Positions 3,844 through 29,800 of a DNA stretch of 30,914 bases are shown piece by piece. The notes under the pieces are model-generated. The model worked only from the letters and a program-made list of their open reading frames with translations. It was not told the origin of the DNA and searched no databases. This DNA is from Saccoglossus kowalevskii (lineage: Eukaryota; Hemichordata; Enteropneusta; Harrimaniidae). Made by a program: the position numbers and the translations under genes. How positions within the stretch are numbered: position 1 is the first letter of the stretch; each line of letters begins with the position of its first letter. The DNA lies in the NCBI RefSeq assembly GCF_000003605.2, contig NW_003122409.1:1102219-1133132 (forward strand), read 5' to 3'.

Positions 3844-3915
3844 TACGGACATACGCCCATATTTTAGAATTCATGCTCACTTTTGCAAAACCACGCCTAG
3901 TATTTAACAGTCATG
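3844..3915 (+). repeat. dispersed short repeat, copy A
   Basis: Contains ACGCCCATATTTTAGAAT, then a spaced CATGxxCACTTTTGCAAAACCACGCC pattern. The same order of motifs appears at 4350-4470 and 10456-10555 in the same orientation. No terminal inverted repeats or target duplications are obvious. It could be a SINE or MITE fragment, and the family is unknown. Confidence 0.5.
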
Positions 3916-4349: not shown

Positions 4350-4470
4350 TACGATTTTAAAATGACCATGCCCATATTTTAGAGACAACACCCACTTTTT
4401 GAATATAATGTCCATTTATAAATTATAACTCGATGTTTAATTATCTGTTCATTGAAATGTTAAGTTTTCA
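4350..4470 (+). repeat. dispersed short repeat, copy B
   Basis: Shares ATGCCCATATTTTA, a following CACTTTTTG-like block and AATTATAACTCGATGTTTAATTA with copy C (AATTATAACTCAGTGTTCAATTA at about 10520). This is the most complete of the three copies by eye. Confidence 0.5.
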
Positions 4471-7446
4471 AGTTCAAAAGTCGCATGGCTACGAAAACCA
4501 TGAATCAATTGAACAACCTAGAATACGGGACAGTGTGTGGAATATATGGAATATTCTCTAAATTAATTTAAAATTCATACCCAACCTGAATAAAAAAAAT
4601 GATCTTCAGACGCATCCGAGTCATTACAGAGAATTCCAATGTAATTTTGGCGGGGAGAATATTTGAAGCATCGAGCTTGAATCTATTAATACCACACTTC
4701 GTTTGTGATATGAAATGACGGTTTTGAGTCAAGGATTTGTAACTTTCTTTAGAATTTTCTTTTCTTTTGAAATGTCCAAATTGGATTCTACCACAATCTC
4801 CCCACGAGTCAATAAACACCATGATTATGATTTCTATTGAATATTTTTTTTTTCAAATGAAGAAAAAGATGTTGAAAGTATGGCTGTATTTTTTTTATTT
4901 TATAAAAATATATTATTTAAGCTTATCGGTCCTATGATTCTCCTGTGCGATTTGTTTATTTGACTATAAAAGCCTGGCGTCAATACGGACAAACTTATTA
5001 CGTTTTACTGAACTACTAGTACTCTATGCAAGAACGAAATATATTTATATATGGCCGCAGTCACGTAGGGAAATAACGTCCAACTATCTAACATATGATT
5101 GTATTTAAATAGAGCAATGACGTGTCTAGTAATATTGTAACAATATAAAAATAATACGGCGACAAAGCGTTGGTCGTCACAGAGATCGAATATACTAAAT
5201 GGAAGGCCGTGACGGAAGGGCGGGTATCCAATGTATATCAAAATAATTATAGAAAACACTGCGTTCAGCACTGTTGTATTGCGCCCTCACAGTAAATTAG
5301 TGAAACAAAATTTACTAGTAAAAATATAACTGTCACGTGCTTACTGCCCCCTCCCCAACTACAGCCGTTCCGAAAAACAAAACAATGGTTGGTCATTTGG
5401 CCTGTAATATTTTACCTGGAACCGGATATGTCGGACCTCTTTGTGTATATATTAAAAGTCTATCGGGTCCCAAAATCACTTTCTTAAATTTGAATTCAAC
5501 AAATGAAATTCAGGTTTGCGCCTATAACCATATATTAGTTAATTTGTCACATACTGTGGTAAGCTCTTGTTTATGTTCCTAATCAAATCATGAAATATCG
5601 TTTTATGTAGTAGTACTGCAGCTGATGTATTATTTCAGAATTCAAGTTTTATTGCACTCTTTTAAAATATGATTAAAATACTCCCTTCTGGTGTTATTTG
5701 CACACGCCTCGTGCGTAAAAGCAAAAACGTTAACATAGAGGGCGGCATATGCAGTAATTGAATTACAATTTACTGTCAGTCACGTGTGTTATAACACTTG
5801 GTTCGTGTCAACTTGGTACGTGCTTCTCGATTGGGTGTTCTCTTTGCAATCAGACAATACACCGTCATATATTAATTTTGTGAGTTTTCTGTGATCTTTG
5901 ATGAATCTAGTCTTCCATCTGACATTTTGTGAAAACGCTCATTCATTGTTATCGTCAAATAATCACCTGCCACTGAGCGATAAATACGATTCCAGCCCCT
6001 TACTATGACTCAGCCAGGATAGCATTTCTAAGCCGGTATAGTGTATTGATAGTATAAACGAAATGCGTCACGTGATCCTCGTTTCCATGGAGTCACATTT
6101 TCACACCGAACATATCAACACTTGCTGCATAATACCCCCGACAATATAAAAGTTCCTAAAATTATACTGTAAAAGTGTTTCCTTTCACTCATCTGGGGTT
6201 TAGAATTCATCGAAAAACGAGCTCTGTTGTAATCGCGCGAATTTAATTTGACGGATTTCATGTTATCACCGAGAATAGCGAAATTAGTCAGGGTTAGTAA
6301 TATACCTCCATGGTAGTAGTAACAGTTAATTCTCGTATTACTTACTACACATTCACAGCGTCCTATGTTTGTTACGGGCCGCGACATGACATTTCGAGTC
6401 ATAGCAATTCATTCCATCACCCAAGCTGAGTCTCCTGCGAAACACATATTATTCAGCATTTAGTATTTTAAATTGGAGTACCACTATATCTAACTTTGAA
6501 TTTGAGACAATACTAGTAAGCCCGGGCGACCGCCACGCATGAAGGCTGTGACCTCCCAAACAAATTGTACCATGAGTGTATTCTGGAAGTGTTGTTTTTG
6601 TGAGGACTTACACGGGCATAACAATTTGACTTTCAAGGAGACAAATCACAAATATCATCTCGCGGAGAACAATGTAACACAATTGTCTGGCGTTTTTATG
6701 AGTATCACAACAACCCTCAAAGCTACTGAAACTGTACAGTGTTATCAAGGACACCATCAATGGCAAGATAAACTTGTTTTAATGACTTTAGTTAAGATAC
6801 ATCGTCAATATTTGGAAGTAATAACAATACAGTGATCCAAAGTCATACACAAAATGAACTGTAGGATATCAATCTAATCTTCTAGGCGATGTAGGTTTGC
6901 AAACAAGCCACACACCACAACTTGGACTATTTTGAATGCTAAGTAAAACAGAGATTTATAGTTATGTGTGGGAGATACGAATGTCATGTATTGTTTTGCC
7001 AACAAACGCCAGTCAGTATCCAAGTGATAAGTCTGAACTTGATGTGAACGTATTTGACATGGGATCATGAATAAGCGCCCACTGTTTGTCGATTTTCGCC
7101 GAATAAGATGACTCGGAAATATTAGCACGTTCATAACGTAAATATTGACGTGTTTCGTTTCAATTTTCTACTCCGAAAACAAAAGTTTCTTCCCGGTTTA
7201 AGCGGCGAATACTCGTTGCTGTTCACAGTTATGTAAACAAAACAATCGTGACACTAAGAGTCTTAACCGATATCTGTCCGAGGCCTGTCTAAAAGTGGCT
7301 TTCGCTAAATGACATCAATCGGAAACGTTTGTCAAATCGAACAGAACAAAATATAAATTTCCATAATTTATCATGATAAAAAAACAGAAACACAATAAGC
7401 AATTTCATAATCTTCAAAAATGATTTAAGCTAAATTTGAATATAAT

Positions 7447-8550
7447 TTACCACTCCGAAAACACAGTGGAAAAACTGTCCTGTCGCTCACGCGTCAGCGG
7501 TGTTCCGGACTCGATGATTGGATGCAACCGTAAATATCGACATAATTTCAACTGCTCCCATTCCTCGTCAGTAACTGTGTTTTCCAGTTTATTTCTGTCT
7601 ATATGATGCCATGATGTTGGTCTTGGTTTTCTTGGGACGCACTCGTGGATTGGAGGCAGTGTCAGAGGCGGCAGCACTAACTTGTTTTCGCGGGGGAATT
7701 CCACGTCGCTGCTAGATATGGAGTGTCGTGGTGTGTTGACATCAACAAGTTTTGTCTGCACCGGTTTCTCGGGTCTATAAACTCGACTGAATCGTCGCTG
7801 CATTTCCTCCTTGCGTGAGAGTGACACAACTCGTTTCGTACTTTCCATGCTGGCTCGATCAAGAAACTCCTGTAGTTTGCGCTGAGTTCCTGTTGTTACT
7901 TCGTGTTCGACAACAGGGACGTGAGACTTGAGAGGGGTGATTATTAAAGCACTTAAAAGTTCAGCTTCACGGTCTTTGCTGATCAATCCTTGACTGTAGG
8001 CAGCTTTCTGTGACGATGCAATCGTACTGGCCGTCACCCCACCAGACCGCTCTTTTACGATTTGGGGAGTGACGATATTGAATGGGCCACTAAAATCTCG
8101 AGTATCCTTTTGTTGTGCCTCTGTTCTGAGGGCATTCATACGGACGTCGAGATGATGGCTACGACAAGCGATGCCTTCAGCTTTTATGTTGCATGTGGAT
8201 GATTTTCCATCGATAGAAGTTATATTCGAAATATTCGAAAGCGGTCTTTTCCCATCTACATTATGCACGACAAATTTTATGTTATGGTTGTTCGCATTGA
8301 ACCCCTTTCTGAAAATCCCTGTCTGTCGCCTCTGCTCCAAAAGTTCTAAGTTTCTTCTCGTGAAGTTGTGTTGAAGTTTCTCCAGATAGTGTTCTTGTGA
8401 CCGCAGTTCCTTCTCTAGGTAATTAGAAATTCTCCGATGCCGCATTCGTTCGACTGAATTGCTGATGTTCATTTCACGGGTGGCACATTTCGACATCAGC
8501 TCTTCCCTGGGATGTTGAATGCGTCGTGATAAAGTTAGCGACGCTGGCAT
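7447..8550 (-). CDS. unrecognised protein, paralogue of the gene at 13312-14187
   Basis: I do not recognise this 367-residue protein. The start is taken at the ATG at 8548-8550 (protein MPASLTL...). The open frame extends 12 codons upstream only to a GTG, and the ATG aligns with the start of the paralogue. Three blocks match the paralogue. Residues 27-75 begin MNISNSVERMRHRR and are a highly charged, probably coiled helical stretch. Residues 193-264 contain LQEFLDRASMES and RRFSRVYRPEKP. Residues 291-345 contain LVLPPL, PTSWHH, EEWEQL and CRYLRL. The linker between blocks 1 and 2 is low in conservation and rich in S, N and T. No signal peptide or membrane segment is seen. RRFS fits a basophilic kinase site. 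The stop overlaps a donor-like GAGTG/GTAAAT, so a further 3' exon is possible. That it is a real gene rests on the paralogue conservation; the function is unknown. Confidence 0.72.
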   Translation of the reverse strand: MPASLTLSRRIQHPREELMSKCATREMNISNSVERMRHRRISNYLEKELRSQEHYLEKLQHNFTRRNLELLEQRRQTGIFRKGFNANNHNIKFVVHNVDGKRPLSNISNITSIDGKSSTCNIKAEGIACRSHHLDVRMNALRTEAQQKDTRDFSGPFNIVTPQIVKERSGGVTASTIASSQKAAYSQGLISKDREAELLSALIITPLKSHVPVVEHEVTTGTQRKLQEFLDRASMESTKRVVSLSRKEEMQRRFSRVYRPEKPVQTKLVDVNTPRHSISSSDVEFPRENKLVLPPLTLPPIHECVPRKPRPTSWHHIDRNKLENTVTDEEWEQLKLCRYLRLHPIIESGTPLTRERQDSFSTVFSEW

Positions 8551-8867
8551 TTTCACAGTGATATAAAAAAATCTTCTTAACCACACGCGGAAATTAACAG
8601 AAATGTCAGTGTGTATTCACTTACGAGGTGATATAGTATTTGGTATATCGTTTCTTTCACCAATTCTTCAAATACGTGAAAACAACCAAGGATGACACGA
8701 TATTGTCCCGGATGCTGTCTTGGAGGAAATTTACTGGAACCTCGGCGAGGCCCCGGCGCGTCACGCGAAGAAGTTGATAACATTTGGATTCCACGATTAT
8801 GTTCATAGGGGTGTAAGTGGGTGATTACCGTCAACAAAAATAAAGCATTAAGAACAGTATTTTCCAT
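8551..8867 (-). other. 5' region of the 367-residue gene with a candidate leader exon
   Basis: On the minus strand an ATG at 8865-8867 opens a 96-codon frame. It begins MENTVLNALFLLTVITHL, which resembles a signal peptide, and continues through a basic, proline-rich stretch (RDAPGPRRGSS). Inside it lies a textbook donor, CTC/GTAAGT, after 8625. A first exon ending there would need an acceptor. The nearest candidate would leave an intron of only about 50 bases, and no equivalent is seen at the paralogue. It may be 5' UTR of the downstream gene, a separate small exon, or chance. The GC- and CpG-richer stretch near 8740-8770 would suit a promoter-proximal region. Confidence 0.2.
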
Positions 8868-9021
8868 CGAGATTATTATGCCATGAATAATTCATTTTAC
8901 CAGCAGAACATGCAAAGATATTCAAAACGAAGATTTTGACTACAAAAATACTAAAATATCCAAATGACGACACAATACTGACATAACTGCATATTATTAT
9001 TTTTCTGTCAATGAGCCTACA

Positions 9022-9225
9022 CAGGCATAATATTCTTCTTCCTCGTTCCTGTGAAAATTCGGGGATAATGGTATCGCCCATGTTAGTCAGACCACTGGAG
9101 ATAATATTAATCTTTTTATTTTCTTGGGACAAATCAGAAATAATATGACCTCTCATTCTCTTGGACAACTCGGGGATAATATCATCTTTCGCGTTCTTTG
9201 GATCGCTCAGGGATAATATTACCCC
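9022..9225. repeat. degenerate 36-39 bp minisatellite (GGGATAATAT core)
   Basis: Six degenerate units each begin with a GGGATAATAT-like core. The six-base cores lie near 9026, 9064, 9100, 9139, 9175 and 9212, so spacings are 38, 36, 39, 36 and 37. The four central units keep a reading frame on the minus strand. There they encode 12-13 residue repeats of the form IIPELSKRMRGH, IISDLSQENKKIN, IISSGLTNMGDT, IIPEFSQERGRR. The outer units fall out of frame. It could be a noncoding minisatellite or a decaying coding repeat. Confidence 0.65.
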
Positions 9226-9235
9226 ATGGGCTTTA

Positions 9236-9239
9236 TTAA

Positions 9240-9331
<92 letters not shown>

Positions 9332-9425
9332 GAATGAATGAATGAATGAATGAATGAATAAATAAATAAATAAATAAATTAATTAATTAACTGATTAATT
9401 AACTAATTTATTTATTTATTTATTT
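9236..9425. repeat. (AAAT)n / (TGAA)n microsatellite
   Basis: A near-perfect AAAT tetranucleotide run to about 9330 is followed by a (TGAA) block to about 9358, more AAAT, a TTAATTAA-rich spacer, and then TTTA repeats to about 9425. The closing TTTA run can pair with the AAAT runs. On the minus strand it directly follows the LINE remnant, so it probably grew from that element's simple-sequence tail. Confidence 0.9.
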
Positions 9426-10100
9426 GTTCAATGAACGTTTTAACAGGGGCTCACGAATCTACCAAGAATAGATAGAAGCTTTATAAAACTTTTATACAAA
9501 TACAAAGCCTTGTAAATAACAATACATATCTTGACGAATAAATTACATAAATTCAAGTCTAAGACTGATGTTAATAATAATACCGGTAGTTAAGATGAAA
9601 TTTTGTATTTGGTAGTATAGGTTCAGTAACAATTTCATACAAATAATTACTGGGTTAGAAAAATCTGTCTGCAATCTATAGACTCAACTAAAAACATTTT
9701 GAGCTCTTTATCAATATCCTCACAAATCATACTGCTCTAATAGATCTCGTAAGAGAATGAACATTCTTTCTTCATGGATTTGTTTCATTTTCCTCATGAG
9801 AATTTCTCTTACTATGACTCCACGCATGATAATGTTTCTCTGAGTATCAAAAAAAACTATATTTAAACATGAAATGTTCTAATGTATCCTCTTCCTCTTT
9901 GCAACATGGACAAATTGTCCCCCATTTTCCTTTTTCATAGGCAAATCCAAGAGTGTACGATCTTGCTTTTAATTTGCTCCCTTAAAATCGGCTATAGAAT
10001 GTAGATATTTTTCTGGACGTTTGAAGTTGGTTTTAAACTTCCTATAATGGATTAGACTTGTTTTGTTGTGCATATTTTCTTTCCATTCGGTTTCAGTTAT
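9426..10100 (-). mobile_element. LINE (non-LTR retrotransposon) 3' end, decayed
   Basis: Minus-strand translation gives pieces of a reverse-transcriptase ORF C-terminus in different frames. First comes YRKFKTNFKRPEKYLHSIADF (about 9980-10065). Next is YTLGFAYEKGKWGTICPCCK followed by EEEDTLEHFMFK (about 9866-9960). The third is a frame ending EQYDL* with its stop at 9720-9722. The CPxC...E-D-LEHF pattern is the terminal zinc-knuckle region found after RT domains in several LINE clades. At least two frame changes and a stop separate the pieces, so it is dead. The 3' end abuts the AAAT/TTTA microsatellite. The clade (CR1, L2 or other) is not resolved. Confidence 0.6.
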
Positions 10101-10455
10101 TTCTACAACCAGAATTCAGTTTATGTTTATATTTTTCATTGTAGCATCTAAATTTTCTTGTCAGTTCCAGTATAGTCCATCTTATTAGCATGTGTAAAAC
10201 TAATTTGTGCCCACCTGGAATCATCCATTTCATCATGATATACTCGTTTGTAATATCAGTTTTAATTGAAAATTATAAATATTTATGAAGACGAAGGGAA
10301 ATGCTTTTTGTTGCGCTGATGTACGAAATAATTCGACCATAGCCGGGTGATCGGTGTTACCTCACCACGTGTCGAAAGCGTAATAGAATCAAACTGTCAG
10401 CATTGTAGCATGTATGAATGCTCAATTGTTTGAGTTATGATGACATGTTTGTAGA

Positions 10456-10555
10456 GTTACGAAAATGAGCACGCCCATATTTTATAATCCATGTCAACAT
10501 TTACAAAACCGCGCCCAAATTATAACTCAGTGTTCAATTAACAGTTAACCGAACT
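10456..10555 (+). repeat. dispersed short repeat, copy C
   Basis: Contains GCACGCCCATATTTTATAAT, ACAAAACCGCGCCCAAATTA and TAACTCAGTGTTCAATTA. It matches copy A in the first half and copy B in the second half. All three copies have the same orientation. Confidence 0.55.
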
Positions 10556-11205
10556 TCACAGTTAATCATATTGTGGATCATCGTCGTACGCCACGGCCTA
10601 GTCGGCCTCTTTTACGGCAAGCCTACACATAGTCTCGTTGAGTCTCGAAGCGGAAATAAACTCTGGCGGCGAGAATGATTGTGGGTAAACATACCATGCG
10701 ATAAGCTTGTTTTGTTAAACATTTGGCCTTAGTCGCTAGGCGCATTTGTCAATCTAGGTACCTGTAATCGTTTTTCGAGATCAGACGGGATTTTGCGGCC
10801 ACACTAAAACCTGACGAAACTAACTAAACACATATATGTATCGACCCTGTCAGTATAGCGAGTTTTCAAAACACTGTTTCCCAATTTTAAAAATATAAAC
10901 AAGTTTCTGAAATACTAGTATGGCAAGTGAAAATAATTTAAAATGATTGGCAGGTAACCCGTCGTCTTTGGCTGGCGAAGATGCAGGTAACCTGATTGAA
11001 ACCTCCGCTATCCGTCACGGTTCTGTCAGACGTCTGGGGTTAATCCAGCACAAAGAGCGCCATCTGTGGTAACAAAAATGAACCTTCCACTCTTCTGTGA
11101 AATTGCAGTTGTCCTTAAGATGTAGACGTCGAGAGATTCACTGTACATTTGAACTATGATGTAGGACCGAGATAAAATAGTATAAAACCGTAACATGTCT
11201 AACGA
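10556..11205. other. intergenic, no supported gene
   Basis: No coding exon is supported. The stretch 10570-10700 is somewhat richer in CpG than its surroundings. A TATAAAA lies at about 11181, roughly 35 bases before the zinc-finger-like remnant, which may be coincidence. Confidence 0.35.
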
Positions 11206-11430
11206 GCAAGTATATCTTTCTGAAGTATGTGATAAGTGTTCTACTGTGTAAGAAGTGTTTTAGGGCAGATCATATGAAATCGTAGGGGTGGCGGGAAGAA
11301 ATGCAAGCAAGACAAGAAAACAATGCATGTAAAGTTTTGGTAAGCAGCCGTGTATTTTCCAATGTAAAGCATGTGACAAGCGTTTTTTTTATGAGGGCAA
11401 CCTGAAACACACACATGATGACATTACATA
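11206..11430 (+). pseudogene. possible C2H2 zinc-finger relic
   Basis: Plus-strand reading shows zinc-finger-like pieces in separate frames: EVCDKC, LCKKCFRADHMKS, and FQCKACDKRFFYEGNLKHTH. The last has the C-x2-C and F...NLKxH pattern of a C2H2 finger, but the C-to-H spacing is 11, not 12, and the second histidine is misplaced. Stops lie between the pieces. It reads as an eroded finger array or a chance resemblance. No neighbouring intact zinc-finger gene is present. Confidence 0.3.
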
Positions 11431-13311
11431 CTATGGTATTTGGAATTTGGAAAAACTACAGTTCACGGTTGTCGTGTAGTATATGAATTCAGCGTAATTC
11501 ATGTAGTATATCCATGGTAACTTCAAAGATTTCTTGGCCGAGTGTATACATGTTTTTTTAGGAAATCGTAAATTTGTTTATGTCTTCTTGACTTCGTACT
11601 TGAACCTGGGTAGCTGACCAATTAGTATGATAGGTTCGTGTGGCAACCAAAACTTAGTATTCTTGTAGAAAATGTTTTGTGTCCTGACGCCAAAGACCAG
11701 TGTCACCGGCACAGAATTTCTGAATTCAATCTTGATACAAATGAAACGTTTTGACGTTAGCTAACCAAGGAAAAATGAACAAGGTATGAGAACTTGATTG
11801 ACCAATGCTGTTACATTACTAGTTACCGACCTCTTGGTGTGACATGATATAATTCTTGTAGGATTGACTGATTATCGCCCTTGGTGGCGTGCTTGTGCAA
11901 TCGCTTTCTGAGCTGGTGACATTTTACACAAAAATCTATGAGATTACGCATTTTTTCAAATGTGCTATATTATTCACTGTTTGGCATTTTATATATGTAT
12001 AAGTGCAGTATTCATGAAAATGAAGAGTTATTGTTGTATATCACGTGACTTGGGGAATGGAACGTGGTACACACTGTGATGTCGAACTCGAGTGACAAAC
12101 GAGCAATGAAGGGCACAAAGTTGGGGACTTTGCTTATAAATGTATTTATAACAATTTGTATAGATGCCGATCATTCAAATTCAAATATTTAATAGTGATT
12201 GGCTCAAAAGGTAAACATTTTCTACCTATAATGCGCACACGTGAGATGCTTCCTGATTCGATAATGTTGAACCATGGAAATGTGGTTTATAGTTCCATGG
12301 TTCAACCATGGAAGGTACTAACTGACAAAATCACACGATAATACAAATAGGAATTAAGGTCACAAGTATCAGTTTATAAAAGTGAAATACGGTTGTGTTT
12401 TCATGAAAAATAATAAACTGTCATATAACAATGGCGTAACATACCATGTAAATTACAATGTCATTCGCGCAATTCGATATACTAAGTACATTATGTAATG
12501 GTGCACCCAATCGTGTGGAAAACAGCAATGCTATCATTAAGCATCACTATATTGTATATTTAATATGATGAATGTTTCAATAAAATCACCAAAACCAAAT
12601 TTAGTATGATACAATGAATTAAAAATGTCATGAACTTGGTCGAAATGTACACACACAACCCACTAAAATACAAATATAACATTGATGAACCATCGTATAA
12701 CGGTACCAACTGATAGTTGTCTATGTTAGGGTATGGTAAATTTGAACATACGGATACAAATAATTTTTCTTGTTTTGTACGTTTTTGGTGAGCGTCACTG
12801 GCCCAATTATGTCAGTATATACTTGCTCATTCTGTCGTACAATTCAACCTTTTAACAAGCTACTAAATTTTTTGTTTAGGAATTTACAGTTTCGCGAAAT
12901 TATAAAACGCTTTGTAGCAGGTGTCACGACTAAGATGTAAAATGCACAAAATGGCGGTTTTCTGAAGACGTGCTCGGATACTGAGGGCGCAATTTCCGTC
13001 AAAACAAGATGCCACCGCCCCCCGTGTTCAAGTTGAGGGAAGGTGATGATGATTATATGCATTATAGCAGTTGTCGTGGTGGATTACTTATGAGTGTATT
13101 CAAAATGAATAAATTCAAACACTTTTTTTGTACTATGGTGCCAACAAGATATATTTGATTTCAGAAGAATCGTTGAATTAAAAAACTTCGACCAGGATGA
13201 AAAAACAAAAACACAGAAGTTCTGTTATGAAACATCGCCATATAATGAAACAATAGCCGGTACAGCCAAGTTGAACATCCTACACTGTTCTGAACGGCAT
13301 TCGTGAGTAAC
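11431..13311. other. intergenic, no supported gene
   Basis: No exon is supported. It contains one TCACGTGA (12041-12048), the perfect hairpin at 12267-12305, and otherwise unremarkable AT-rich sequence. The minus-strand frame at 12844-13062 has no support beyond being open. For the gene to the right this stretch would be the 3' flank. I found no convincing AATAAA close to its stop. Confidence 0.4.
12267..12305. repeat. perfect 13-bp inverted repeat (hairpin)
   Basis: TTGAACCATGGAA and TTCCATGGTTCAA are exact reverse complements separated by 13 bases. A third CCATGGAA copy follows immediately (to about 12313). No poly-T run or gene end is adjacent, so I assign no terminator or RNA role. Confidence 0.75.
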
Positions 13312-14187
13312 TCACTGTTTACTAGTGTCTGGCGGGATTCGAAGATATCTACAACCTCGTATCTGTTGCCATTCTGCTTCGTCCGTATCCGAATCTAACT
13401 GTAGCGATGGGCACCTGATGGCGTGGTGCCAAGACGATCGCCTCGTCAGTTGAATTGGCTGGGTCTTGTATAAAGGTGGTAACATCATGCTCGTTTGTGG
13501 CACTAACGATGCATACATCGTTGCTGAATGTTTACTACGATGAAAATTAGGAAAAGGTTCCGAATGTCGGCGGAGTGAGTTTTCTGGTTTCTCGGGGCCA
13601 TATACACGACTGAATCGTCGTTGCTTTAGTTGTTTCTTTGTTGGGGGTTCTTCTGTCTGTGCAGACTCCATGCTTATTTGTTGCATAAACGCCTGCAATT
13701 TACCATCTATGTCGTCATTAACAGTTACACGTGCTTCAAAATTAGAAGTTGGCATAAATGAAGCCAATAGCTGTTCGTCGTCAGCGGCTAGTACACCCAT
13801 GGGTACACTCTCTTTCTTCGTTTTGGAACCACGTGCTCGGTTCTGGCTCGTTACTTTCGAGGATTCATTAAAATTCAAATCAATAAATGTTGGTTCATCG
13901 CTCTTTTGTCGTTGTGTAGTGACCGTTGTCCCGTCAAGAAAATTGGTACGACGTTTGTTAAACTTTTCCATGTTCCTTTTCGTTGAGTTTAATAGTCGAT
14001 CCATGTACAGTTCCCGTGATTTTCGCTCTTTTTCGATTTGCCTTTGAAATCGACGGTATCGCACCGTTTCAACGGAATTGTGCACATCCATTTCCTTATT
14101 ACCGCAACTGGAAATAGTAGTTTGGCGCAATCGCTCTCTCTTAGCGTTCACCGATCGTGGTGGGTTGGCGGATCCTGCCGTTGGCAT
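13312..14187 (-). CDS. unrecognised protein, paralogue of the gene at 7447-8550
   Basis: A 291-residue protein starting at an ATG (14185-14187) with a single long open exon. It is clearly related to the 367-residue protein about 4.8 kb away on the same strand. Block 1 (residues 33-82) begins MDVHNSVETVRYRR and is charged and probably helical. Block 2 (136-203) has ADDEQLLASF, LQAFMQQISMES and RRFSRVYGPEKP. Block 3 (234-286) has MMLPPL, RRSSWHH, EAEWQQI and CRYLRI. It is shorter than its partner mainly in the linker between blocks 1 and 2 and at the C-terminus. RRFS and RRSS fit basophilic kinase sites. No signal peptide or membrane span is seen. The stop overlaps a strong donor-like ACA/GTGAGT, in the same phase as the donor-like site in the paralogue. 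I know no family that matches, and the function is unknown. Confidence 0.72.
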   Translation of the reverse strand: MPTAGSANPPRSVNAKRERLRQTTISSCGNKEMDVHNSVETVRYRRFQRQIEKERKSRELYMDRLLNSTKRNMEKFNKRRTNFLDGTTVTTQRQKSDEPTFIDLNFNESSKVTSQNRARGSKTKKESVPMGVLAADDEQLLASFMPTSNFEARVTVNDDIDGKLQAFMQQISMESAQTEEPPTKKQLKQRRFSRVYGPEKPENSLRRHSEPFPNFHRSKHSATMYASLVPQTSMMLPPLYKTQPIQLTRRSSWHHAIRCPSLQLDSDTDEAEWQQIRGCRYLRIPPDTSKQ

Positions 14188-14596: not shown

Positions 14597-15043
14597 GGGA
14601 CGACGTCAAAAGATCGATGTCGGATAAAAAACTTAATTCCTTTAGTTTTTTTCCAAACCCCCCTACCCCCCACTGAAACTTAATTGATAAATATTGGTCA
14701 TGGCGTCAGACTACATTCACCATTATATACAAATTGATAATCAGACAGTAGTATTGCATAGCAGTTGGTTGTCGGGTGGGTGTAAAAAGATTTTACAAAT
14801 GCACCTCATTTGACGCACAGATTTACACTCGAACCAAACCATTTTTCTGTTTTTTTCCCCTTTTCGGTTATTTCTGTCCATGATTGGATAGGAAAAAACG
14901 AACTACAAATACTCCAAGATTTTTTTGACTTCATTAAAAAATAAAATCGTTTTTGTAGGGTGGAAACTTTTTGAGGTCAAAACCCCCCATCCCCAAACTA
15001 AAGGAAATAAGTTTTTCATCCGACATCGATCTTTTGACGTCGT
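14597..15043 (-). mobile_element. PIF/Harbinger-type MITE, copy 2 (inverted)
   Basis: Nearly the full reverse complement of the element at 373-816. Its left end, GGGACGACGTCAAAAGATCG, corresponds to the right end of copy 1. Its right end reads CGATCTTTTGACGTCGT and then diverges before the final CCC, so the last bases and the target duplication are not recovered on that side. The internal sequence matches copy 1 closely, differing mainly by small changes in homopolymers, which suggests fairly recent activity of the family. Confidence 0.8.
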
Positions 15044-16480
15044 AACACCCTGGTCTTTACTTCTTTGTTGAAAAAACACAATTAAGTTGTTCAATTACTT
15101 GAAATTGTATTGCCCTTGAACATTTTGTTCTCGCTTTTTTTCCTCTCGAAAACACCACGTTATGTGTTCAAATTACATTATTATTGGTCTTGGTGGCCCA
15201 AACTTTAACAATAATTTGACTGCAAAAGTGTGAGCTTTGCGTAATTATGACAAATACGCCGTAAAAAGGTATCATTGAGTTCATAATAGTATCATGATTT
15301 ATATTTCAGTCAGTTTGACAGTGGTTGCCATGACATATACTGATAAAGGTTAATGACAAGACCAGATGGCGAGCTGGTCGAAATCAACCAAAAACATCTT
15401 ATGACTCTGCAGTTTTTAAGATACACGACAGTAGCTGTAATTCTAAACCAATGTTGTTTGCGATTTTAACTAAGGTGGTATCTTTGTGGAATGTTAGTGC
15501 AAGACTATTACCCCATCAATATTAGTTGGCGTTGACAATGTATAGAAATGTTTTCTCTAGACAGCTTGACGAGTAATTAATTGATTATGATGTGTAAAAC
15601 TTTCATGTGATTGGTTGTTTGTTGAAAGGCAAGGCCTTGGAGTCTCTTATACTGATTGTAATTGGTTAAGGGGTGACAAGAAATAAAGATTGATTTAATG
15701 CTGTCTCGGGTAAAAACCAGGGACTTGGCAGAGAATCGTTTTGGGAACATGAACGAAGCTTGTGTGTGTCTTTTGTCAGCCTAGCGTGGAAACGACCGAA
15801 TCCCGGTTACCTAAGTGAAAGGTTTTTAACCATCAAAAATACCTATCACAATAGCCCAATAACATCTGTTACATCTTGTCTTTTCGATAACCATCGTGAC
15901 TTGAATATAGCGGGGACTAAAACTGATATTCTGCCATTGCCGTTCTTTTAACTGTTAATTAAACGAACACGCCCATCTGATTCGACGATGGGAAGCGTGT
16001 AACCACTGCAATATTCGGTTTGTTGTCAACCATTTTGGTCGACGTTTCTCGGAATCTATATGTTTATAACAAATATAAAGAAAAATGTATATTCGGACAT
16101 CTGTGTACTCGCAGTGTCTTCTAATAATGCGAATCTCCGTGATAATATAGCACATAGAACAGTCGGGTAGAACCATTGACATACTATAGATAAGTGTGAG
16201 TCCATGGATACGTCGAATTGTGAGCAATGTATAGATGAATGTGAAGACTCGATAAAGGAGTGTGAATTGGAAACTCAAGGTTTCTGTAGCAGCTAAAAAT
16301 AAACCAAGGAGGTTGAACTATTTTAACTCATGGTCAAACTTATATGTAGTAAAATACACTTTTCTACATTCAGATTTAGTGAATTGTGCAAGGAACGTCG
16401 CGACGTGTTATCAGATGCACATCACAATTGGAATTGTTATCAGGACAAATGTCTTTTATTTACAATTTGCAAAGAATGAC
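15044..16480. other. intergenic, no supported gene
   Basis: I see no supported exon. Two ATTGG boxes (about 15611 and 15661) and a short TTAATTAATTGATTA stretch occur near 15575-15665, but no start of a recognisable gene follows. Open frames in 15760-15951 and 15955-16278 begin at non-ATG codons and resemble nothing I know. Confidence 0.4.
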
Positions 16481-17961
16481 CAGGGCCGTAGCTAGCTTTT
16501 TTCACTAGGGGGGGGGGGGCAGCAAATGTATTTTTTTTAAGTTGCGTATAAATGTATAAAGGCGTAGAGGTGTGCAGTTGCGCCATAAGTCTATGGGGGG
16601 TATATCTATCTACTTTTAACAATAAAATCATCTTGATATATTTTATGAATATATACAAAACACGGGATATTACAGTATAAACTTTAATACCTGAAAAACT
16701 CTTGTTCTACCTTCATATATAAGCAACATTAATGTACAGGACTGATTAATACAATTGATAGTTGTACAATACACAGTTTATGTTTACAACTTTGGCGATA
16801 GCATATTAATTTATCTCCAATTACCTTTCCTTGAATAAATCACTTTTGGGGAAGGAATGATGCCTCGGTGTACTAGTAACATTGCAAGAGCACTGAGTCT
16901 GTCTTGAGCCATGCTAGATCGTGTCCATAACTTTACCCGCCGAAGTGCAGAAAAATAACTTTCACATTATACGCTTCCGACAGATTGTGAGAATTCTGTG
17001 GATGGCTGGGAAATAGTTGACACCACAAACAACAAGAGATGAAGCAGAATCATTGGGCTTTTGCTCAATTGGTGTATCACTGAACTTTGTTATCCACTTC
17101 TCAATTTCAATATTCAAAAATTCAGCCCTTTGCAAAAATTTCCCTTAGTAATTTTTAATTGAGGTCACATGGGTTGATGTGAGCTGACCAATGTTGCATT
17201 GTAAAGGTGCTTGTGCAGCTATCAGACCACAGTGATGATCAGCAAATCNNNNNNNNNNNNNNNNNNNNNNNNNNNNNNNNNNNNNNNNNNNNNNNNNNGC
17301 GTCTCAAGATCTTGGATGACATGATCCGAGAAAAGACATGTACATTCAATATTTTTGAATATATTCCGCATCGTTTACGAAATTCTGTCAATTGCTTCCG
17401 CCGCCGCGAGGCATTGCAGACCCTGTATAATCTCGACCACCAAGAAGATCATAATGAAGTGACCGAGCTTGATTAGTGGCTTCATGTCAACCAAACTAAA
17501 CGGCTCTTTTCAGGGTCACCACATATTCCAAAAAGAGAGAAGCCGTAATTTTAAATGATTAATATCATCAGATTGTGGCGAGTGTGATCGAATTTTCGTT
17601 TATTTGAATTTACTGCTATACATACTGTCAGGGCGACGTCATACATCAATCATACTGATATTCCTCACATCACTGCTTGTACTATAAAAATTCAACATTG
17701 ACAGTTGTGTGCAACGTTTCTTCGAAGCTGCCATGGCTGACGTGTCAATCTGAAATACGTTTGACCCGCTGTGTATCAAAGTGTCAACGCGCTCAGTAAT
17801 AAATATAAACAAAGTACACGCCACTGGCTTACCATGTTTGATTTCAAATCGTGTACAAACCGAATACGTTGTTGCTCGAAGCTTTTCTATTTTAGGTTTT
17901 AAAAAAAACTCCCAAACTCAGGGGGCAACTTCCCCCCTTGCCCCCGCTAGCTACGGCCTTG
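16481..17961 (-). mobile_element. hAT-type DNA transposon, internally decayed
   Basis: The left end is CAGGGCCGTAGCTAGC and the right end is its near reverse complement, GCTAGCTACGGCCTTG. The pentamer ATGAC directly flanks both ends (16476-16480 and 17962-17966), a 5-bp target duplication. G- and C-runs lie just inside both ends. Minus-strand translation of about 16851-17130 gives hAT dimerisation-region pieces. VCGVNYFPAIHRIL lies about 60 bases before degraded SxxxFSALRR-like sequence, then MAQDRLSALAMLLVHRG. These match the FP.I..ll..lp.s...ER.FS.LR...RLs.LAl..ihr pattern of hAT transposases. Frame breaks and stops interrupt it, the catalytic N-terminal half is not visible, and a 50-base gap lies inside. 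hAT elements usually make 8-bp duplications, though 5-bp groups are known. Confidence 0.72.
17249..17298. other. assembly gap (50 N)
   Basis: Fifty undetermined bases lie inside the hAT element. The round number suggests a placeholder, so the element's true length is uncertain. The open frame spanning the gap on the plus strand should not be taken as a protein. Confidence 0.98.
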
Positions 17962-20023: not shown

Positions 20024-20860
20024 ATTAGTAGAGAATTTCACCAACAATGACAAAAAAAATTAGAGAATTCAAAATGTCATCGCGAAATGTTCAATTCTAA
20101 TTGATATCCACCTAAGGTGAAAGTATACCAAGTATTGAAGAAATTGAAATATTTTTTTTTACCAAGTCAGAAATTGTTGACGAATGGGGGATGAACTAAC
20201 AATGGACAATCACCTACATGATGAACAGGTACACTTGTCATCTAAACTGACACCAAAGCTAAAAATTGCAGGCCAATATTTTCACCAATTACACCACAGC
20301 ACATTGTCTTATGTTGATGCATTGCTTAAACCTCTAAAACTTGTGTATCAATTATTTTAGCGGGGAAAAAAACTACAGAGGTTTGGGTACTGGCATTTCA
20401 AGAAATATCAGTATAAGTATAAGTATAAAATGCCCAAAATGTCAGACTTGTGATTAGAGAAAAAGGCAATGGGTGGGAGTAAATGATTCCTTAAGCAAAA
20501 TCTATTTCAGACACTTCATAATTTGAAGGAGAGTTTCATATTTATTATGACAATGTGTGTTCTCTTTTTCATAGCATTTTAAAACTTTTACGAGAGTGAG
20601 ACATTACATTTATACAACAAGTCTGGTACATGTGATTTTCAATACATACACACTGGTATTAAGTGACAATACCGATACAATGATCGAATAGTGATGACGA
20701 ACATGCTAACAGATATATTGAACTAAGTTTCAATTCGAACAAGTAAAAAAATACTATTGATACAAAAAGTAGTGTCATTGTGATCAAAATAACAAAAGCT
20801 TGAAATTTAACCAAATAATTAAATTTGATTTCCATGGTTTACTTTCACAACATTATTTTG
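20024..20860 (-). other. NUP107 3' UTR and downstream flank
   Basis: Minus-strand transcription past the NUP107 stop enters this stretch. The first clear AATAAA hexamer on that strand is at 20541-20546 (tttatt on plus), which would give a 3' UTR of about 330 bases. No other gene is visible. Confidence 0.35.
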
Positions 20861-23800
20861 TCAGTAACCGAGTGGGTCTTTGTTGTCATCCAATAACTGG
20901 AGTGAAGATTCTCGCATCATTTGCAGGAGTCTCTGAAGTTCCTCCTTACGGAACACCTGTAACAACAAATGAACAAACTATTAAAATTGAAAAAATACTC
21001 AATAAATATTTATTCGAGTCAAATTCAAATGGTGTACTACTCACCACGATATTGCACACAGATATGCAATGCATTATGGGATATATCCTCATATATAATG
21101 GACAACTATTATCACATTCAAATGCACAAAATTAAATGTAAAAATATAAATTTTTTTAGGATTAGGATTCATATCAATAACAAAACATGATTATTTCATT
21201 CTGTTTCAACAAGCAACATATTGAGATATGAAAAAATAATTTAACCATAGCAACTAATGCAAAAATAGAAAATTTGAGTATTTTCCATGTTCCTCGAAAA
21301 ATTGTCCAGAATTTTATTTTCCTTTTCCTGGTTGTACCAAAAAATATGACCAGCAATAATATATTTTTACCAGGGTCTATTGACTGTCGACAGTCGGTCA
21401 TACCTAATAATAATCTGTTATTATTAATAAATATTGTGTATAAACATAATAGGCGTGAATAAATTGCAAACGCCAGGACAGGAAGTATGGAATGCAGTTA
21501 GGTAAGATTTCTTACCAGATATGGGTACTTTCATATGCAAATGTAGTCGCACAGATGACTATCATTTTATCGTGGCCAATCTACTACTAGGCTACTAGGA
21601 TCGCCCAGGACTAAGGTGAAGTTTCATTTGACTGTACTATACACGATCGCGAAAATTCTTGACTAATGCATTATAAAAGTGTTGGAACGTTTAGACTACC
21701 ATGATATTTCTTGCAAAGAATACCAGCGAGACACTAACACAAACTACACAGACATTCATCTTGTCAAAAAGAAGTCGTTTCGAAACCCATCTTCAGTTTC
21801 AGTTTTCTTGGAGGAAAATGTCTGCGACCTATCCAATAACTCTCTCTTAGTTTGTTGAAATTTCTCCCTGAACTCGATCATATTTTTATGCAGAGTCGAC
21901 GCTCTCATTCCACATTTTCTACAGGCATACAAACTGGCAAAATTTAGATCGATCGTCTCTGCCACAACAAATACGATTACTTTGTTGATGCCGCGAAACA
22001 GTCACCTCTGGTTTGACTGCCTATTTGATTTGCTATTTTGGTTGTAGTGACTGTACTCATTGTGTTCATAACGTGAACAACCAATGCATTTAGGGTGTCA
22101 TTTAGAATAAATTTGCACACATTATGTTAATATATTTATTTCATGACGTCAGCATCAACTATGAATTATTCATATCAACTAGAAACCTGCAGACGGGGAC
22201 TGTCTCTCGGGACTAAAGTTCCTCACGTGAAATGGGTCACATTTCCCATCAAACACCTTTGACAATCGAATATCAAGGAAACACAATAATTAGGCCTGAG
22301 GACTGTCGACAGTCTACTGAGTCGAGTGCTACATTGTCATAATGTGTGTAAACAAGGTATTCAAAAGCAGTGTAAATGTGGTGCACATACCAAAAAACAC
22401 AAAGGTTTTTGTTTTCAGATGAATAATAAAAACAATGTATTATTCAATCTACCTTGTATAGTTGGTGTTCTTCACTGGCTATGACATCAGCTAGTTGTAT
22501 ACATCTCGTATACTGTTTGGTATTATGGAGTACAGAATGCAGTAAGGAACACATACTGGGAATACATAGTTGCCGTAGTAACATCATCTGATGTGTCCTG
22601 CCACTATCTCCCATATCATCTTCCTCCTGTAAAAACAGCAGCACAATATTAACAAAAGCACCACTGTCCACATGCAGAACAAGCTTGAATTTTTTGAACA
22701 AGCACACAGACCAATATATAAAACTATAATTTGAAATGGACGCTATTCAAATACTGTTTTTATACGTGATCTCTCTGACATTTTGCAAGGTTACTCTCAA
22801 TAAATCATTGGAAAAATTTGAATTTTGTCAACATTAAAAGAAGCTAAGATAAATCATATTTTAATCAATTTTGTCATCTTCCTGATGTACCCTAATGCTC
22901 ATAAGATAATATGTAGAATCATTTTATTTTTATTCTCACTGTTTTCTACTGATTTACTGTACTGACAGCTGCTCAAAATCTACCAAATAATTGTTGACTT
23001 TTAGTAATTTCTTTTTATTTAAAATGACTATCATTCATTCAAACAAGTTGTTATTCTTTTTCATCACTTTCAGTGGGTACGATTCAGGGGTTAATGAAAT
23101 AAAATTGGCATATGTTAGTTGAATGATATATTTTATAATGTAGAACACAAATGATATATGTGAGGTAGATGCTATACATAGTGATACCAAGTATTTGTTG
23201 GTAAATTTGTTATGAAGTGCCGCAATTGAAATAAGCTCAAGCAAAAATAATATATTGAAAAAATATTGTTGTTCATGCCATGAGTACAGAATTTCCTAGG
23301 CAGACAAGGAATAATGCAAATTGAGGCAGTTTGACCCCTTTCAAATTTTACTTTACTGAGCTTGTCACTACACCTATATGCATTATAGGAATGAACCTTC
23401 CATTTTATATTATGCAAAACACAATAACAATAAACATTTTTGAGATATGAAGAAATAATTCCACCATAAAACCAGTGTAAAAAACGACAATTTTGACCAT
23501 TGTCCATGATATTTGGGACTCTTGTATCTCGAAAAATTGTCTGGTGACTATAATTCTTGTTTTCTTATTGTCAGTATCTTGATAGTTCAAACTCATAATG
23601 ATGAAAGTATGGATGAACTTGACAAATAATTTACATGGCAGCTTGAACCTATTTAAGATATCCCACCAATAAATTGTAAAATTTATCATTGTTCATTCTT
23701 ACCTCTCGTTGATCAACCATCCATCCCCCGTCTGGAAACAATAACACATTGTATATGCATTCCACAACAGTCTTACTTTGTAAAATTAATGAATACTGCC

Positions 23801-26800
23801 ATCTATCGACTTCTTGCTGAGGAAAGTAAGATACAGAAAACATTTTTAATATTAAAAATCAAAATCTTGTGAACAGTTTGTCAAATTTCATTCATTTATT
23901 CACTGATTGAGCAATATAAGTTTGACTTTCATTTTTTTAATATTTTCTAATACGAGAAGTAATAAATTTGATACTAGACAAATTTTCACAGTTTTGTGTG
24001 ATATCGTGGTCGCATGTCACCACACACACAGACACAACTTTGCTATCACACTCTTTTTATAAAGTTCATCACATGTCAATTACACTTGTTCTGACCAATA
24101 GCAGATAGATGTTGTTGGTTATCATTGAAATAGCAAATGTGAGAAGATAATTTAAAATAAGGACAAAAATGCGTCTGATTTCTGGAATTCATGGATACTG
24201 GTACTATATACTAAATAAAAAATGTCGCTGTGACTACCTGTCTAAAGAACATTGAAAAACTATAAGGAATTCACGTTACTTGGCTTACCTCGTATTGCTT
24301 AACTTCATGTTCGTGTTTAACACGTTCTTGGAATGTTGCGGATGGTGCTATTGTTGGCTTTGAGGGTGCAGCATTATGGTAATGTTCGAACCAATCATTG
24401 AATGCATCATGGGCATCCTGTAGGAAAAAATAAATAATTATTACCAGTAGTAGAGATGACTGTATGAAATGAAACTGTAGAAAACAATACATTTTAATAT
24501 CCAAAATTTTTTATAAAATTATCTAAAGGAACATGGATTGATCTCAATATATCCTGTTACACATTTAGTGATATCATGCTTGATTTTAAAGGGCAGTGGT
24601 TGCCACACTGCACATGTGCAACATTTGTTTTGACAAACATTGACTTTTCCACAATCCAATGCGTTCTTCTAATGGAAATAACAAGTATGAGGTTTTACCT
24701 TGGCACAAATTGCACTAATTACTGCCGGTGACTCCTTTGATACCTTCTAATCAACTAAAAAATGCCTAATTAAAGTACTCCTTGATCTGCTCAACAGTCA
24801 AAGTCGGCATCTTTGTTTATATGAGACCCATATATCTTGCGCATGTGTGGCACGACGAATATCGCACTTTAATATTCATCACACAGATTGGGGTGACAAT
24901 GCTTGATTGTGTTAATCATAAAGCAAACATGAGTGGCACCAATATTGAAAATAATATTTCACTGAAAGAAAAAACATTGCATAATGACAACACATAACAT
25001 GAGAGTGTACATACCAGATATGCTTTAACACATATGTATTCTCTGATAGCATTATCATCTTCTGGTAGCTGAGGTGCACTGCCAGCCTGTGACTGCCAAT
25101 TCTTAGTAATCACATCTATAGAATCACTTGGAATCTTATTAAATACTTCACGACATGCCTTGTACTTCCTAGTGGCTGCCAAGGATAAAAAATCAGAGTT
25201 GAATGCATATGCGACATATAACAAGTTTAGTATTACAAGAGTCATACACATCCCTTATATCTGGTAAACAGAAACACTGGATGTGTTCCAAATGAGAGTC
25301 AATTCAAATACTTTCCTTATATACATGTGTACTTTAACAAATTTTATTTTTGATATTTTCTGTGAAGAGATGCCAGAGTCTGGGGAAATACAAACTATCT
25401 AATATACGTTTTTTTCCAAATTTCACATTCATCTCATCAAAACTCAATGAAAATAAATTCCATACAAAACACCAAAAAAGTCTTCAGCGAAAATTAATTC
25501 CAGCTAAAATAAAGTATTTTGCAGTAGTGTGGGATGGAAATATAATTCTATCACTGAATGTATATGTCCATGCAGACAAGAATCTGATATTAAATGTTGT
25601 TTGCTGGCATTTTTTGGTCATTATCTATCTTTATGTTAAATTATTACTATAAAGAGGTAAAAGATGTACAACAATAAGGTTTTCATGGAAATACAGCAAA
25701 ATAGGGAGAACAGGACTGCATAAACCTTCCTATACATACATTTCAGTTGATACAAGTGCCATGCAGCTTTCATGCATACTCCGGGGTATTCTTGTAATAA
25801 TCTCATAACACCAGGAAGAAAAACAAAATGGCTTTATTTTCACTTTGTTATAATCGAAGTAAATCGGAAGGTTTCCAAGTTAATATCTACTTGTGAACAT
25901 TATGGCCTGCACATATACAACCTCTGCAACGTTGATTCACACACTACTGCATTAGAATGACTTACCTAAGAAGGTTCTCATGACAGCATTGCTTTGTTTT
26001 AATGCTTCTGCCCTCTGTGAGGGGTCAAATACCAACCAGTCAATGGCAGCTATCTTTTGTTTATCCTCCTAGTTTGGGAAAGATGAAATATTCAAACTGT
26101 TAACATTGATTACAAGCTAGGAAAATAAGGTGTTTTTAGTAAAACATGAGTACTTTGTGACAAATGTTGGTTATATACATGTCAGAAGTGACCTGCTTAC
26201 TTATATCCCATGAAAAAGACGTAGAACTAACATGCTCTATTGCCTTCTGTTTTTAACCTAGTACTTCAAAAAGAAGTAGAAGTTACAGGGACACTGTTTT
26301 CCTTAATCCTTGCCGGAAAAACCAACAATATTTATTAAAATACTATAAATGCTTTTGTTATTCATTTGGTTTTAATTTTTCTGATAAGTGAAATCTGCTA
26401 AATTAAATCCTATGTGAAAATGAAAAAAAAGAGTCTCACTGTAAAACTTTTAAATTTAAAATCTATAATTGTTGACTCTATATACCTCTGAGATGGCAGC
26501 TTCATTAGCTGATGTTGAATCTGTTTCCATGGTGATATCCCCAGCATCTCTTGTTCTGATGTTTTCCACTACAGTTTTCGTGATAGTTGGAATGTCAAGA
26601 CCTGAAGTGGGAAAATAAGAAAGTCCTTTTCAATAAATGCAATAAAATCATAGACATTATAGTGAGTCCTACTAAATTGCATATGATTAAGAGGGCATCT
26701 ATCTTGTTAACCAAAATATAACCACATGAGATGAGAAAGACAACATACCTGCTTCTTCAGCTAGTACAAGACATTGTTGTCTTTCTTCTTTCTCATGAAT

Positions 26801-29800
26801 TCCTAGAATAAACAGAGTAATAATGATGTCACTTGATGCACAAACAATATATTATAACTAGCCCATTGTAATAGCCTATTGTAAAAGTCAATACCATGTG
26901 ATGATCTGTTTCAATAGTCGCCAACAGTCAAACTTTCTGAACTGTCAATCACAGAACAAACCTGTACATTTTTTTTCTAATAGTTTTTCAAATGTTTTAC
27001 TCAAGAGTGTAGGCAATAGAAAATGTGTTCATTTGGTATGAAATTAAAGAAATTAGAGAAGGATTTAGTAAATGTTCCACCGAGACATATACCGGTAGGT
27101 TGAGTGACATTTTGAGTAAACTCACTAATGACATTGAACCTGATGGTAGTGCATCTTGAGAATTTCAAAATACTGTGTGTCTGTGTGCAGGGCACTCAGT
27201 GATGGTTATTTTACGTGTCAAATAAATCATATTAGATCATACTATTTTTTCAGTTGGGTGTAAACTTGTTCTTTATCCAGGGGATATCAATAATAATAAT
27301 AATAACTTTATTGCATCCTTAAATAATACAATGTTTCTATCAGTTAATAGCAATAAAGATTGGTTGTGATGACTACTACTATCATGCAGCAGTAGTGAAT
27401 TGCAAATTCCAAGAATGAGCATTAATGATACATACTGCACATCTTGCCACAAGAAATATACTGTAAATTGCTTATTTTTTGCTATTAGAGATTTTTGCAA
27501 TTTCATGATTTTATGGCATTTGTTAAAATAAAATTTAGTGAAAATAACTCAGTGAAAATAAAATTTTGTGTATCACAAAATTTAAGTGGTTTACAGAACT
27601 CCATAACAACATAACATTGGCTGTGTAAAAAGGCCAAATATGTTATATACCCTGCTATCCAAACCAAACCCAATATAAATAAAAATCAGGATACTAAAAT
27701 AAAAAAACACCACATAAAAATCAGTGTTATTGTTTCCTAACTCACCTTCTAGGAAATGAGCATAGCATGTAACTTGCATCGGTGGTGGCAGTGTAGATGT
27801 GTACGTGGCAACTAATAAAGTATTCTTATCCTCAATCAGATCCTATCAAACAAACCAGGATTTGATTACAAGCAAAGATTAAGATAAGGGTATGCAACTA
27901 AAAGATCTCAATATGAAGTTACATGTATAGGTGATTTTCCTTTTTATCACGTGATCTCACATATGCGTGAATGTTACATACCAAACTTTTGTGTTGAAAA
28001 ACAAATGATTTGGACTTTTCTGACTTCATCAAAATTTACTGTAAGAAATAACTCGAAAATACTTTAATTTGCATTTGTCTCACACGATGTTTGATATCAC
28101 TACAATGCTATGTATTTTTTGTCCTGTTTTTTTTTATGTTCAATTTCACACATAATGTAGGATCTTGCAGTAAACGAAAAATAGAAAGTGAGATGATCAC
28201 TAAATAATAAGAGTCTGTGAAAGACTTGGTTAGTGTTTATCACAAGTTGCTTTGTTAGTGTCTTTTGGATGATTTTTGATGAAGACAAGTAGAAGTAACC
28301 ATAGTAACCAGCAGGACTACTTTGATATAGATGACAAAACCTACCCTGACATAGGCTTCCAGAATTGCAGTACATAACTCTTCTTTTGTTTGCAACCCAA
28401 CGGCTCTAAAGAACAGTACAATATGCGCCATAAACCGAATTAGATGGGTCGATGACCTCAATGTAGGATTATGTAACCAGTCATTCATTTCTTCAATTAA
28501 ACCTGAAATAAAAAAAAAAATACACAAAATTGTACAAAAATGGATATTTAAAAGACTTCATATATTAAATCCTCTGCACGGGTTACTATCTGTGTTACTA
28601 TTAAACCATCATCACAGACAATCAATCAAGTTCACTGGCAAGGAAACATTGAATTGTTATTTTACATGTTCATGTGGATTTATTAAATTAGCATATTTTA
28701 TGTACTGGTGAAAACCAGTGGATAACTAAAGTATTTGCAGTAATTACTTTCATTCCCCAATTAAACAGTTCTATCATGCCATCTTTTTTTAAAGCCTTCC
28801 TTTAAGGATTTCCCTCTTGGGCTTCAGCAGTTTTATCATTTCTGTTCTGCTCAAATCCAATTCGTTGTTTCAAGTGAATGTTAAGTTATTCTGTCATTGT
28901 TTGTTATTTAAACAAGCAGCCTGTCGGCTGAGATAGCTCCGCTGTTAGCAATGCACATTTCAATTAAAGAACAGAAGATATCAAAAGAAAATGAACAATA
29001 TGTATAGTATCAAAGCAATGGGACTTGCTGTTTTCAACAAGAATTCAAAAATATCACTTTTCACTAAAAATTACAAAAACAATCATCAAAATTAGATAAT
29101 TGAAGATATCACCATGAAATTAACAAATCTGAAAGAGGTCCACATGTAGTACCTATACATGTAATATCAAAGCAATTGGACTTGTAGTTTTTAACAAGAA
29201 GTCAAAAATATCACTTTTTACTAAAAATGACAAAAATATTCACCAAAATTAGAGATTAAAGGTATCATTACAAAATGAAAAAATCTGAGAGAGATCCACA
29301 TGTAGTACCTATATATGTAATATCAAAGCAATTGGACTTGCAATTTTTAACAAGAAGTCAAAAATATCACTTTTTACTAAAAATGACAAAAATATTCACC
29401 AAAATTAGAGATTAAAGGTATCATTACAAAATGAAAAAATCTGAGAGAGATCCACATGTAGTACCTATATATGTAATATCAAAGCAATTGGACTTGCAAT
29501 TTTTAACGAGAAGTCAAAAATATCACTTTTTACCAAAAATGACAAAAACATTCACCAAAATTAGATAATTGAAGATATCACCATGAAATTAACAAATCTG
29601 AAAGAGGTCCACATGTAGTACCTATACATGTAATATCAAAGCAATTGGACTTGTAGTTTTTAACAAGAAGTCAAAAATATCACTTTTTACTAAAAATGAC
29701 AAAAATATTCACCAAAATTAGAGATTAAAGGTATCATTACAAAATGAAAAAATCTGAGAGAGATCCACATGTAGTACCTATATATGTAATATCAAAGCAA

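Follow-up and report, generated by a model that had tools for sequence, protein, structure and literature searches.

The stretch of the Saccoglossus kowalevskii genome analysed here (30,914 nucleotides of contig NW_003122409.1, C1491:1102219-1133132; hereafter the window) contains two long minus-strand coding frames, A and B, which, as judged from their sequences, are homologous tandem head-to-tail duplicates and genuine protein-coding genes under purifying selection. Together they appear to constitute a real family without a name in the libraries searched. Such a family is of a common sort, as unnamed conserved families are frequent in newly read animal genomes. The two frames are:

7447-8550, minus strand: coding frame of gene A, 367 amino acids from its ATG, isoelectric point 9.8.
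13312-14187, minus strand: coding frame of gene B, 291 amino acids, isoelectric point 9.9.

A and B lie head to tail on the minus strand with a gap of 4761 bases (~4.76 kb), and both proteins begin with MP. The original prediction, made from the letters of the window, had given the same coordinates, strand, lengths and first residues, with a spacing of about 4.8 kb, and was correct in each respect. In both genes the start is the earliest ATG downstream of a stop in the same frame that lies 69 bases upstream of it in A and 27 bases upstream in B, and both starts have an A at position -3 (context CACCATGC in B). The closest upstream ATG in any frame was found 233 bases away in A and 191 bases away in B, and counting a GTG start instead of the ATG would extend A to 379 amino acids. 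The longest ATG-initiated open reading frame in 60 simulated windows was 171 amino acids, and that in a further 60 with the composition of the A and B gene regions was 206. GC content rises at the frames, to 0.46 in A and 0.45 in B, as compared with 0.355 in the flanking sequence of the window. An open frame of 125 amino acids antisense to B (13670-14047, plus strand) was of a length within the range of the composition and was not taken as a gene.

Aligning the two proteins by BLASTP gave 94 bits (E 2e-26, identities 90/341), and their Smith-Waterman score was 262, while 1000 shuffles of B averaged 40 and reached 67 at most. A frame-blind comparison of the DNA yielded two best segments, scoring 195 and 109 and both in frame, where 50 codon-shuffled controls scored no higher than 89; a third segment scored 77, inside the control range. 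The BLASTP and shuffle results, along with the adjacency of the genes on one strand, bear out the proposal that A and B are tandem paralogues. As also proposed, the protein alignment and BLASTP placed the named blocks in the same order in both proteins, namely NSVE..R.RR with a charged helix, KLQ.F....SMES, QRRFSRVY.PEKP, LPP, SWHH and EW.Q...CRYLR. The LPPL block is indeed present in both, but A has LPPL followed by LPPI, and it is with the LPPI that the LPPL of B aligns. The blocks are located as follows:

8326-8508, minus strand: block 1 of A, charged amphipathic helix with NSVE..R.RR (residues 15-75; alignment and low-confidence model).
13948-14127, minus strand: block 1 of B, the same charged helix as in A (residues 21-80; ten-residue mean pLDDT, the predicted local distance difference test, 70-91).
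7759-7884, minus strand: blocks 2 and 3 of A, KLQEFLDRASMES and QRRFSRVYRPEKP (residues 223-264; candidate RRFS site of the protein kinase A (PKA) type at 252-255).
13582-13707, minus strand: blocks 2 and 3 of B, KLQAFMQQISMES and QRRFSRVYGPEKP (residues 161-202; RRFS at 190-193).
7519-7674, minus strand: blocks 4-6 of A, LPPL/LPPI, SWHH and EEWEQLKLCRYLR (residues 293-344; alignment).
13327-13482, minus strand: blocks 4-6 of B, LPPL, SWHH and AEWQQIRGCRYLR (residues 236-287; alignment).

Synonymous and nonsynonymous differences were counted on the protein-made alignment, and the codon-position test was redone on the frame-blind DNA segments. In the 272 aligned codons, differences fell on 147.3 of 181.5 synonymous sites (proportion pS 0.81, beyond saturation) and on 285.7 of 634.5 nonsynonymous sites (proportion pN 0.45, rate dN 0.69). 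In six chosen blocks (132 codons) pS was 0.82 and pN 0.335, and fourfold-degenerate sites were identical at 10 of 33, close to the chance value of 0.27. The synonymous rate dS has no finite estimate, and dN/dS is well below 1. Since synonymous sites are saturated and nonsynonymous sites are not, the protein sequence appears to have been kept by selection since an ancient duplication, the age of which is likewise indicated by the saturation. The two best frame-blind segments had 28/74, 20/74 and 41/73 mismatches at codon positions 1, 2 and 3, respectively (Fisher P 8e-4, position 3 vs 1+2), and including the third segment gave P 7e-4. The selection on protein sequence that had been proposed is thus supported, and a dN/dS near 1, which the original prediction had named as one of its refuters, is ruled out by the site counts. 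Its claim that both frames are real genes is upheld by frame length, homology and the codon-position pattern.

We searched the whole genome (572,110,611 bases in 4830 contigs) with protein A as the query, accepting E values up to 10, and obtained three matches: one was A itself, and the other two were parts of B (E 5.7e-14 and 1.2e-6). No third copy was found within the window or, with A as the query, in the whole genome, in a search that could miss distant intron-split copies and to which N stretches are invisible. On this search A and B would be the sole members of the family found in the S. kowalevskii genome. A transposon origin of the pair is not favoured, as A matches only B genome-wide and the window's long inverted repeats belong to two separate elements flanking the pair.

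Neither protein could be assigned to a known family, in agreement with the prediction, which had recognized none: searches of Pfam, PDB, NCBIfam and PHROGs returned no named family. With whole proteins against Pfam-A (E up to 10) only sub-threshold matches were obtained, the best reaching 13.5 bits for A (cut-off 27) and 16.2 bits for B (cut-off 21.1). The latter, PF08823 PG_binding_2 (residues 129-168, E 0.013), was taken as chance; it covers mostly the linker before block 2 and is absent from the matches listed for A. PDB sequences gave no significant match, with best E values of 0.013 for A, 0.41 for B and 0.044 for a two-sequence profile. The best of A, ribosomal protein uS4 over the charged helix (residues 34-92), was also taken as chance, being unlisted for B and falling to E 0.3 with the profile, whose top match was ybaW (E 0.044). 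No credible relative was found in PHROGs (best E 0.67 for A and 0.056 for B) or in NCBIfam (0.061 for A, no match for B). As a positive control, a 55-amino-acid peptide from an exon of NUP107, the neighbouring gene, matched PDB with E 9.8e-18.

Collections outside animals were also scanned (viral, prokaryotic, phage and plasmid); an animal gene is not expected in them, so that they speak only against an origin there. The alignment scan of viral contigs gave 22 stretches matching the pattern and that of the genome_contigs collection gave 73, none of which was confirmed in either case; the motif pattern had no occurrence in the viral contigs, and tblastn gave no match in phages with B as the query or in plasmids with A. 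No mention of RRFSRVY or overlapping motif strings was found in the literature searched. The motifs are not known to match any of a few human proteins with which they were compared, and no conclusion rests on that comparison.

A and B could be diverged representatives of a family that already has a name elsewhere among animals, such as a vertebrate open-reading-frame or coiled-coil gene. The synonymous saturation makes the pair old, so other animals may well have the family, and Pfam recognized only two of four short NUP107 exon peptides from the window, which indicates that it misses short pieces of known families. Against this stand the lack of any Pfam family at cut-off for either whole protein and the silence of the literature searched on the motif strings. 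We regard this reading as a serious possibility, albeit one that we lean against, and the claim of an undescribed, lineage-restricted family as plausible.

It might also be that each frame is the first, or an internal, coding exon of a larger spliced gene; the proteins read here would then be fragments, and further domains would decide their function. What suggests this is a donor-like site over each stop:

7445-7453, minus strand: possible splice donor GTG/GTAAAT over the stop of A, 6/9 consensus letters, suggestive only.
13310-13318, minus strand: possible splice donor ACA/GTGAGT over the stop of B, 7/9 consensus letters, suggestive only.

Frames of 20 amino acids or more in the window end in 1056 stops; of these, 231 are preceded by a G, 98 have at least 6/9 donor letters and 40 at least 7/9. 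The joint chance of both donor-like stops is ~0.35%, a value judged after the fact. With a G before the stop, the donor phase shared by A and B follows of itself. A comparison of the two downstream regions turned up nothing beyond a T-rich piece and a short repeat, and no convincing homologous second exon. We consider a fragmentary nature of the proteins rather unlikely.

The T-rich piece (TGTGTTTyTGTTTTTT..ATC.TG) follows soon after both stops, at 7372-7394 and 13193-13215, with 20 of 23 positions alike, and is perhaps an element of the 3' untranslated region, or chance. The short repeat (CCCATATTTTA...) occurs downstream of A and B in the same orientation, at 3853-3908, 4368-4456 and 10471-10553 (best 82% over 45 bases), and could be a repeat of the dispersed kind or left over from the duplication. 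No AATAAA was present within 1500 bases downstream of A or B; weaker polyadenylation variants such as ATTAAA were located 664 and 1200 bases downstream of A and 748 and 1119 bases downstream of B.

Both proteins are strongly basic and hydrophilic, with grand averages of hydropathy (GRAVY) of -0.76 for A and -1.06 for B. AlphaFold2, run with the two sequences, predicted a helix at residues 4-76 of A (mean pLDDT 44.5) and at residues 11-84 of B (mean pLDDT 54.9, with ten-residue means of 86-91 over residues 41-80), and little confident structure beyond it in either model. The top helical hydrophobic moment of each protein falls inside this helix, at 0.71 in A (residues 38-51) and 0.70 in B (residues 63-76), as compared with means of 0.27 and 0.23. 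The second-highest moment of A, 0.67, is in its RRFSRVY region. By the same measure the C-terminal EW...CRYLR block, with values of 0.23 and 0.25, lacks amphipathic character. With low confidence, the models point to one long amphipathic charged N-terminal helix in each protein and little else that is structured.

RRFS occupies the same alignment place in the two sequences compared. R-R-x-S is the PKA consensus, and RRFS fits it as a candidate phosphosite conserved between A and B, by consensus match only. Of the two phosphorylation sites that had been proposed, RRFS and RRSS, the former is hence conserved, while the latter is found in B only, A reading RPTS at that place. B carries, in addition, RRHS at 206.

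Taking these features together, we tentatively read A and B as kinase-regulated adaptors, a mechanism that we doubt slightly more than we believe. The long helix would pair with itself or with a partner to form a docking surface, and the short motifs would bind either further proteins or a polymer, for instance nucleic acid or a filament. The serine of the RRFSRVYxPEKP motif would be the switch, acted on by a basophilic kinase, for example PKA. The two copies arose long ago by tandem head-to-tail duplication. The free divergence of the linkers suits a motif-plus-linker protein better than an enzyme. Several points weigh against the adaptor proposal: the structure models, built from two sequences, are weak; Arg/Ser-rich proteins often contain kinase consensus sites, R..S/T matching eight times in A and six times in B; the partner motifs RVxF, KEN and LxxLL are absent from both proteins; and the C-termini may be incomplete past a splice site. 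It and the other readings of the two proteins as gene products (filament or axoneme proteins, a family named elsewhere, incomplete frames) are not mutually exclusive.

A and B might instead have a structural role in cilia, sperm tails or the cytoskeleton, with the W/Y/P/H motifs binding a filament, the helix packing on it and the kinase site being incidental. Their basic character, little predicted structure, scattered short motifs and long helix are compatible with this, and microtubule inner proteins resemble them in general character. PDB contains solved axonemes, and neither the single sequences nor the profile gave a credible match to any PDB chain. We judge a structural role unlikely. 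That the frames are chance or decayed remnants, for which the lack of AATAAA and the presence of weaker variants only could be adduced, is extremely improbable given frame length, homology and the codon-position pattern. In its boldest form, the adaptor proposal would make A and B an undescribed old animal family in which the helix and RRFSRVYxPEKP form a new kinase-switched docking module, the copies being specialised for different partners; this we find doubtful.

As for the genomic setting, minus-strand exons at 20861-30395 (~20.86-30.4 kb) encode part of NUP107. Two exons were confirmed by PDB and Pfam; the remaining ones, including the last, we presume to belong to NUP107 from where they lie, their strand and their resemblance to known NUP107 sequence. 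Two of those so assigned gave no Pfam match when tested. NUP107 ends ~6.7 kb upstream of B, which places the pair downstream of it. Beyond the window on the NUP107 side we found a further NUP107 exon on the same strand (L005:1654-2067 (-), Pfam E 7.6e-19) and then an opposite-strand exon (L005:8377-9309 (+)) with a BRCT domain matching DNA polymerase lambda (PDB E 2.9e-15), the two standing head to head. Next to the window, N makes up most of the sequence on the left and much of that on the right.

Several repeats were also observed. An element of ~450 bases with inverted ends (ACGTCAAAAGATCGATGTCGG), probably a young non-autonomous DNA transposon, is present in two copies of opposite orientation at 373-822 and 14597-15043, with arms 95-98% alike. 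The region 16481-17961, bounded by CAGGGCCGTAGCTAGC and its near-inverse (15/16), looks by eye like a decayed hAT-like transposon; one frame tested in it had no Pfam match, and it includes a run of 50 N at 17249-17298, probably an assembly gap. A 156-base unit, also seen as 313, is repeated in tandem ~6 times at 28998-30079 in a presumed NUP107 intron, with short related pieces at 20036-20140. Between A and B lie a long (AATA)n array (9238-9387) and, at ~9650-10170, a region that resembles by eye the end of a long interspersed nuclear element and in which the frame tested had no Pfam match. A Pfam search of other frames in the window (8848-9168, 15955-16278, 17642-17917 and 9972-10115), in which E values up to 1 were accepted, gave no match.

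If the family is widespread, it is an unannotated animal gene family with a clear motif, RRFSRVYxPEKP; should it be limited to a single clade, it adds one more to the unnamed, mostly unstructured families of invertebrates. In either case the old pair offers an internal comparison of which residues matter. Two known systems may be compared with it. Like disordered phospho-regulated adaptors, a functional class, A and B are basic, show little predicted structure apart from one helix, and carry short conserved motifs and a conserved R-R-x-S, the likeness being one of character. Like the tandem unnamed paralogue pairs of animal genomes, they lie head to tail, are the sole copies found with A as the query and are without a named domain; they differ from such pairs in that their synonymous sites are saturated, which makes A and B old.

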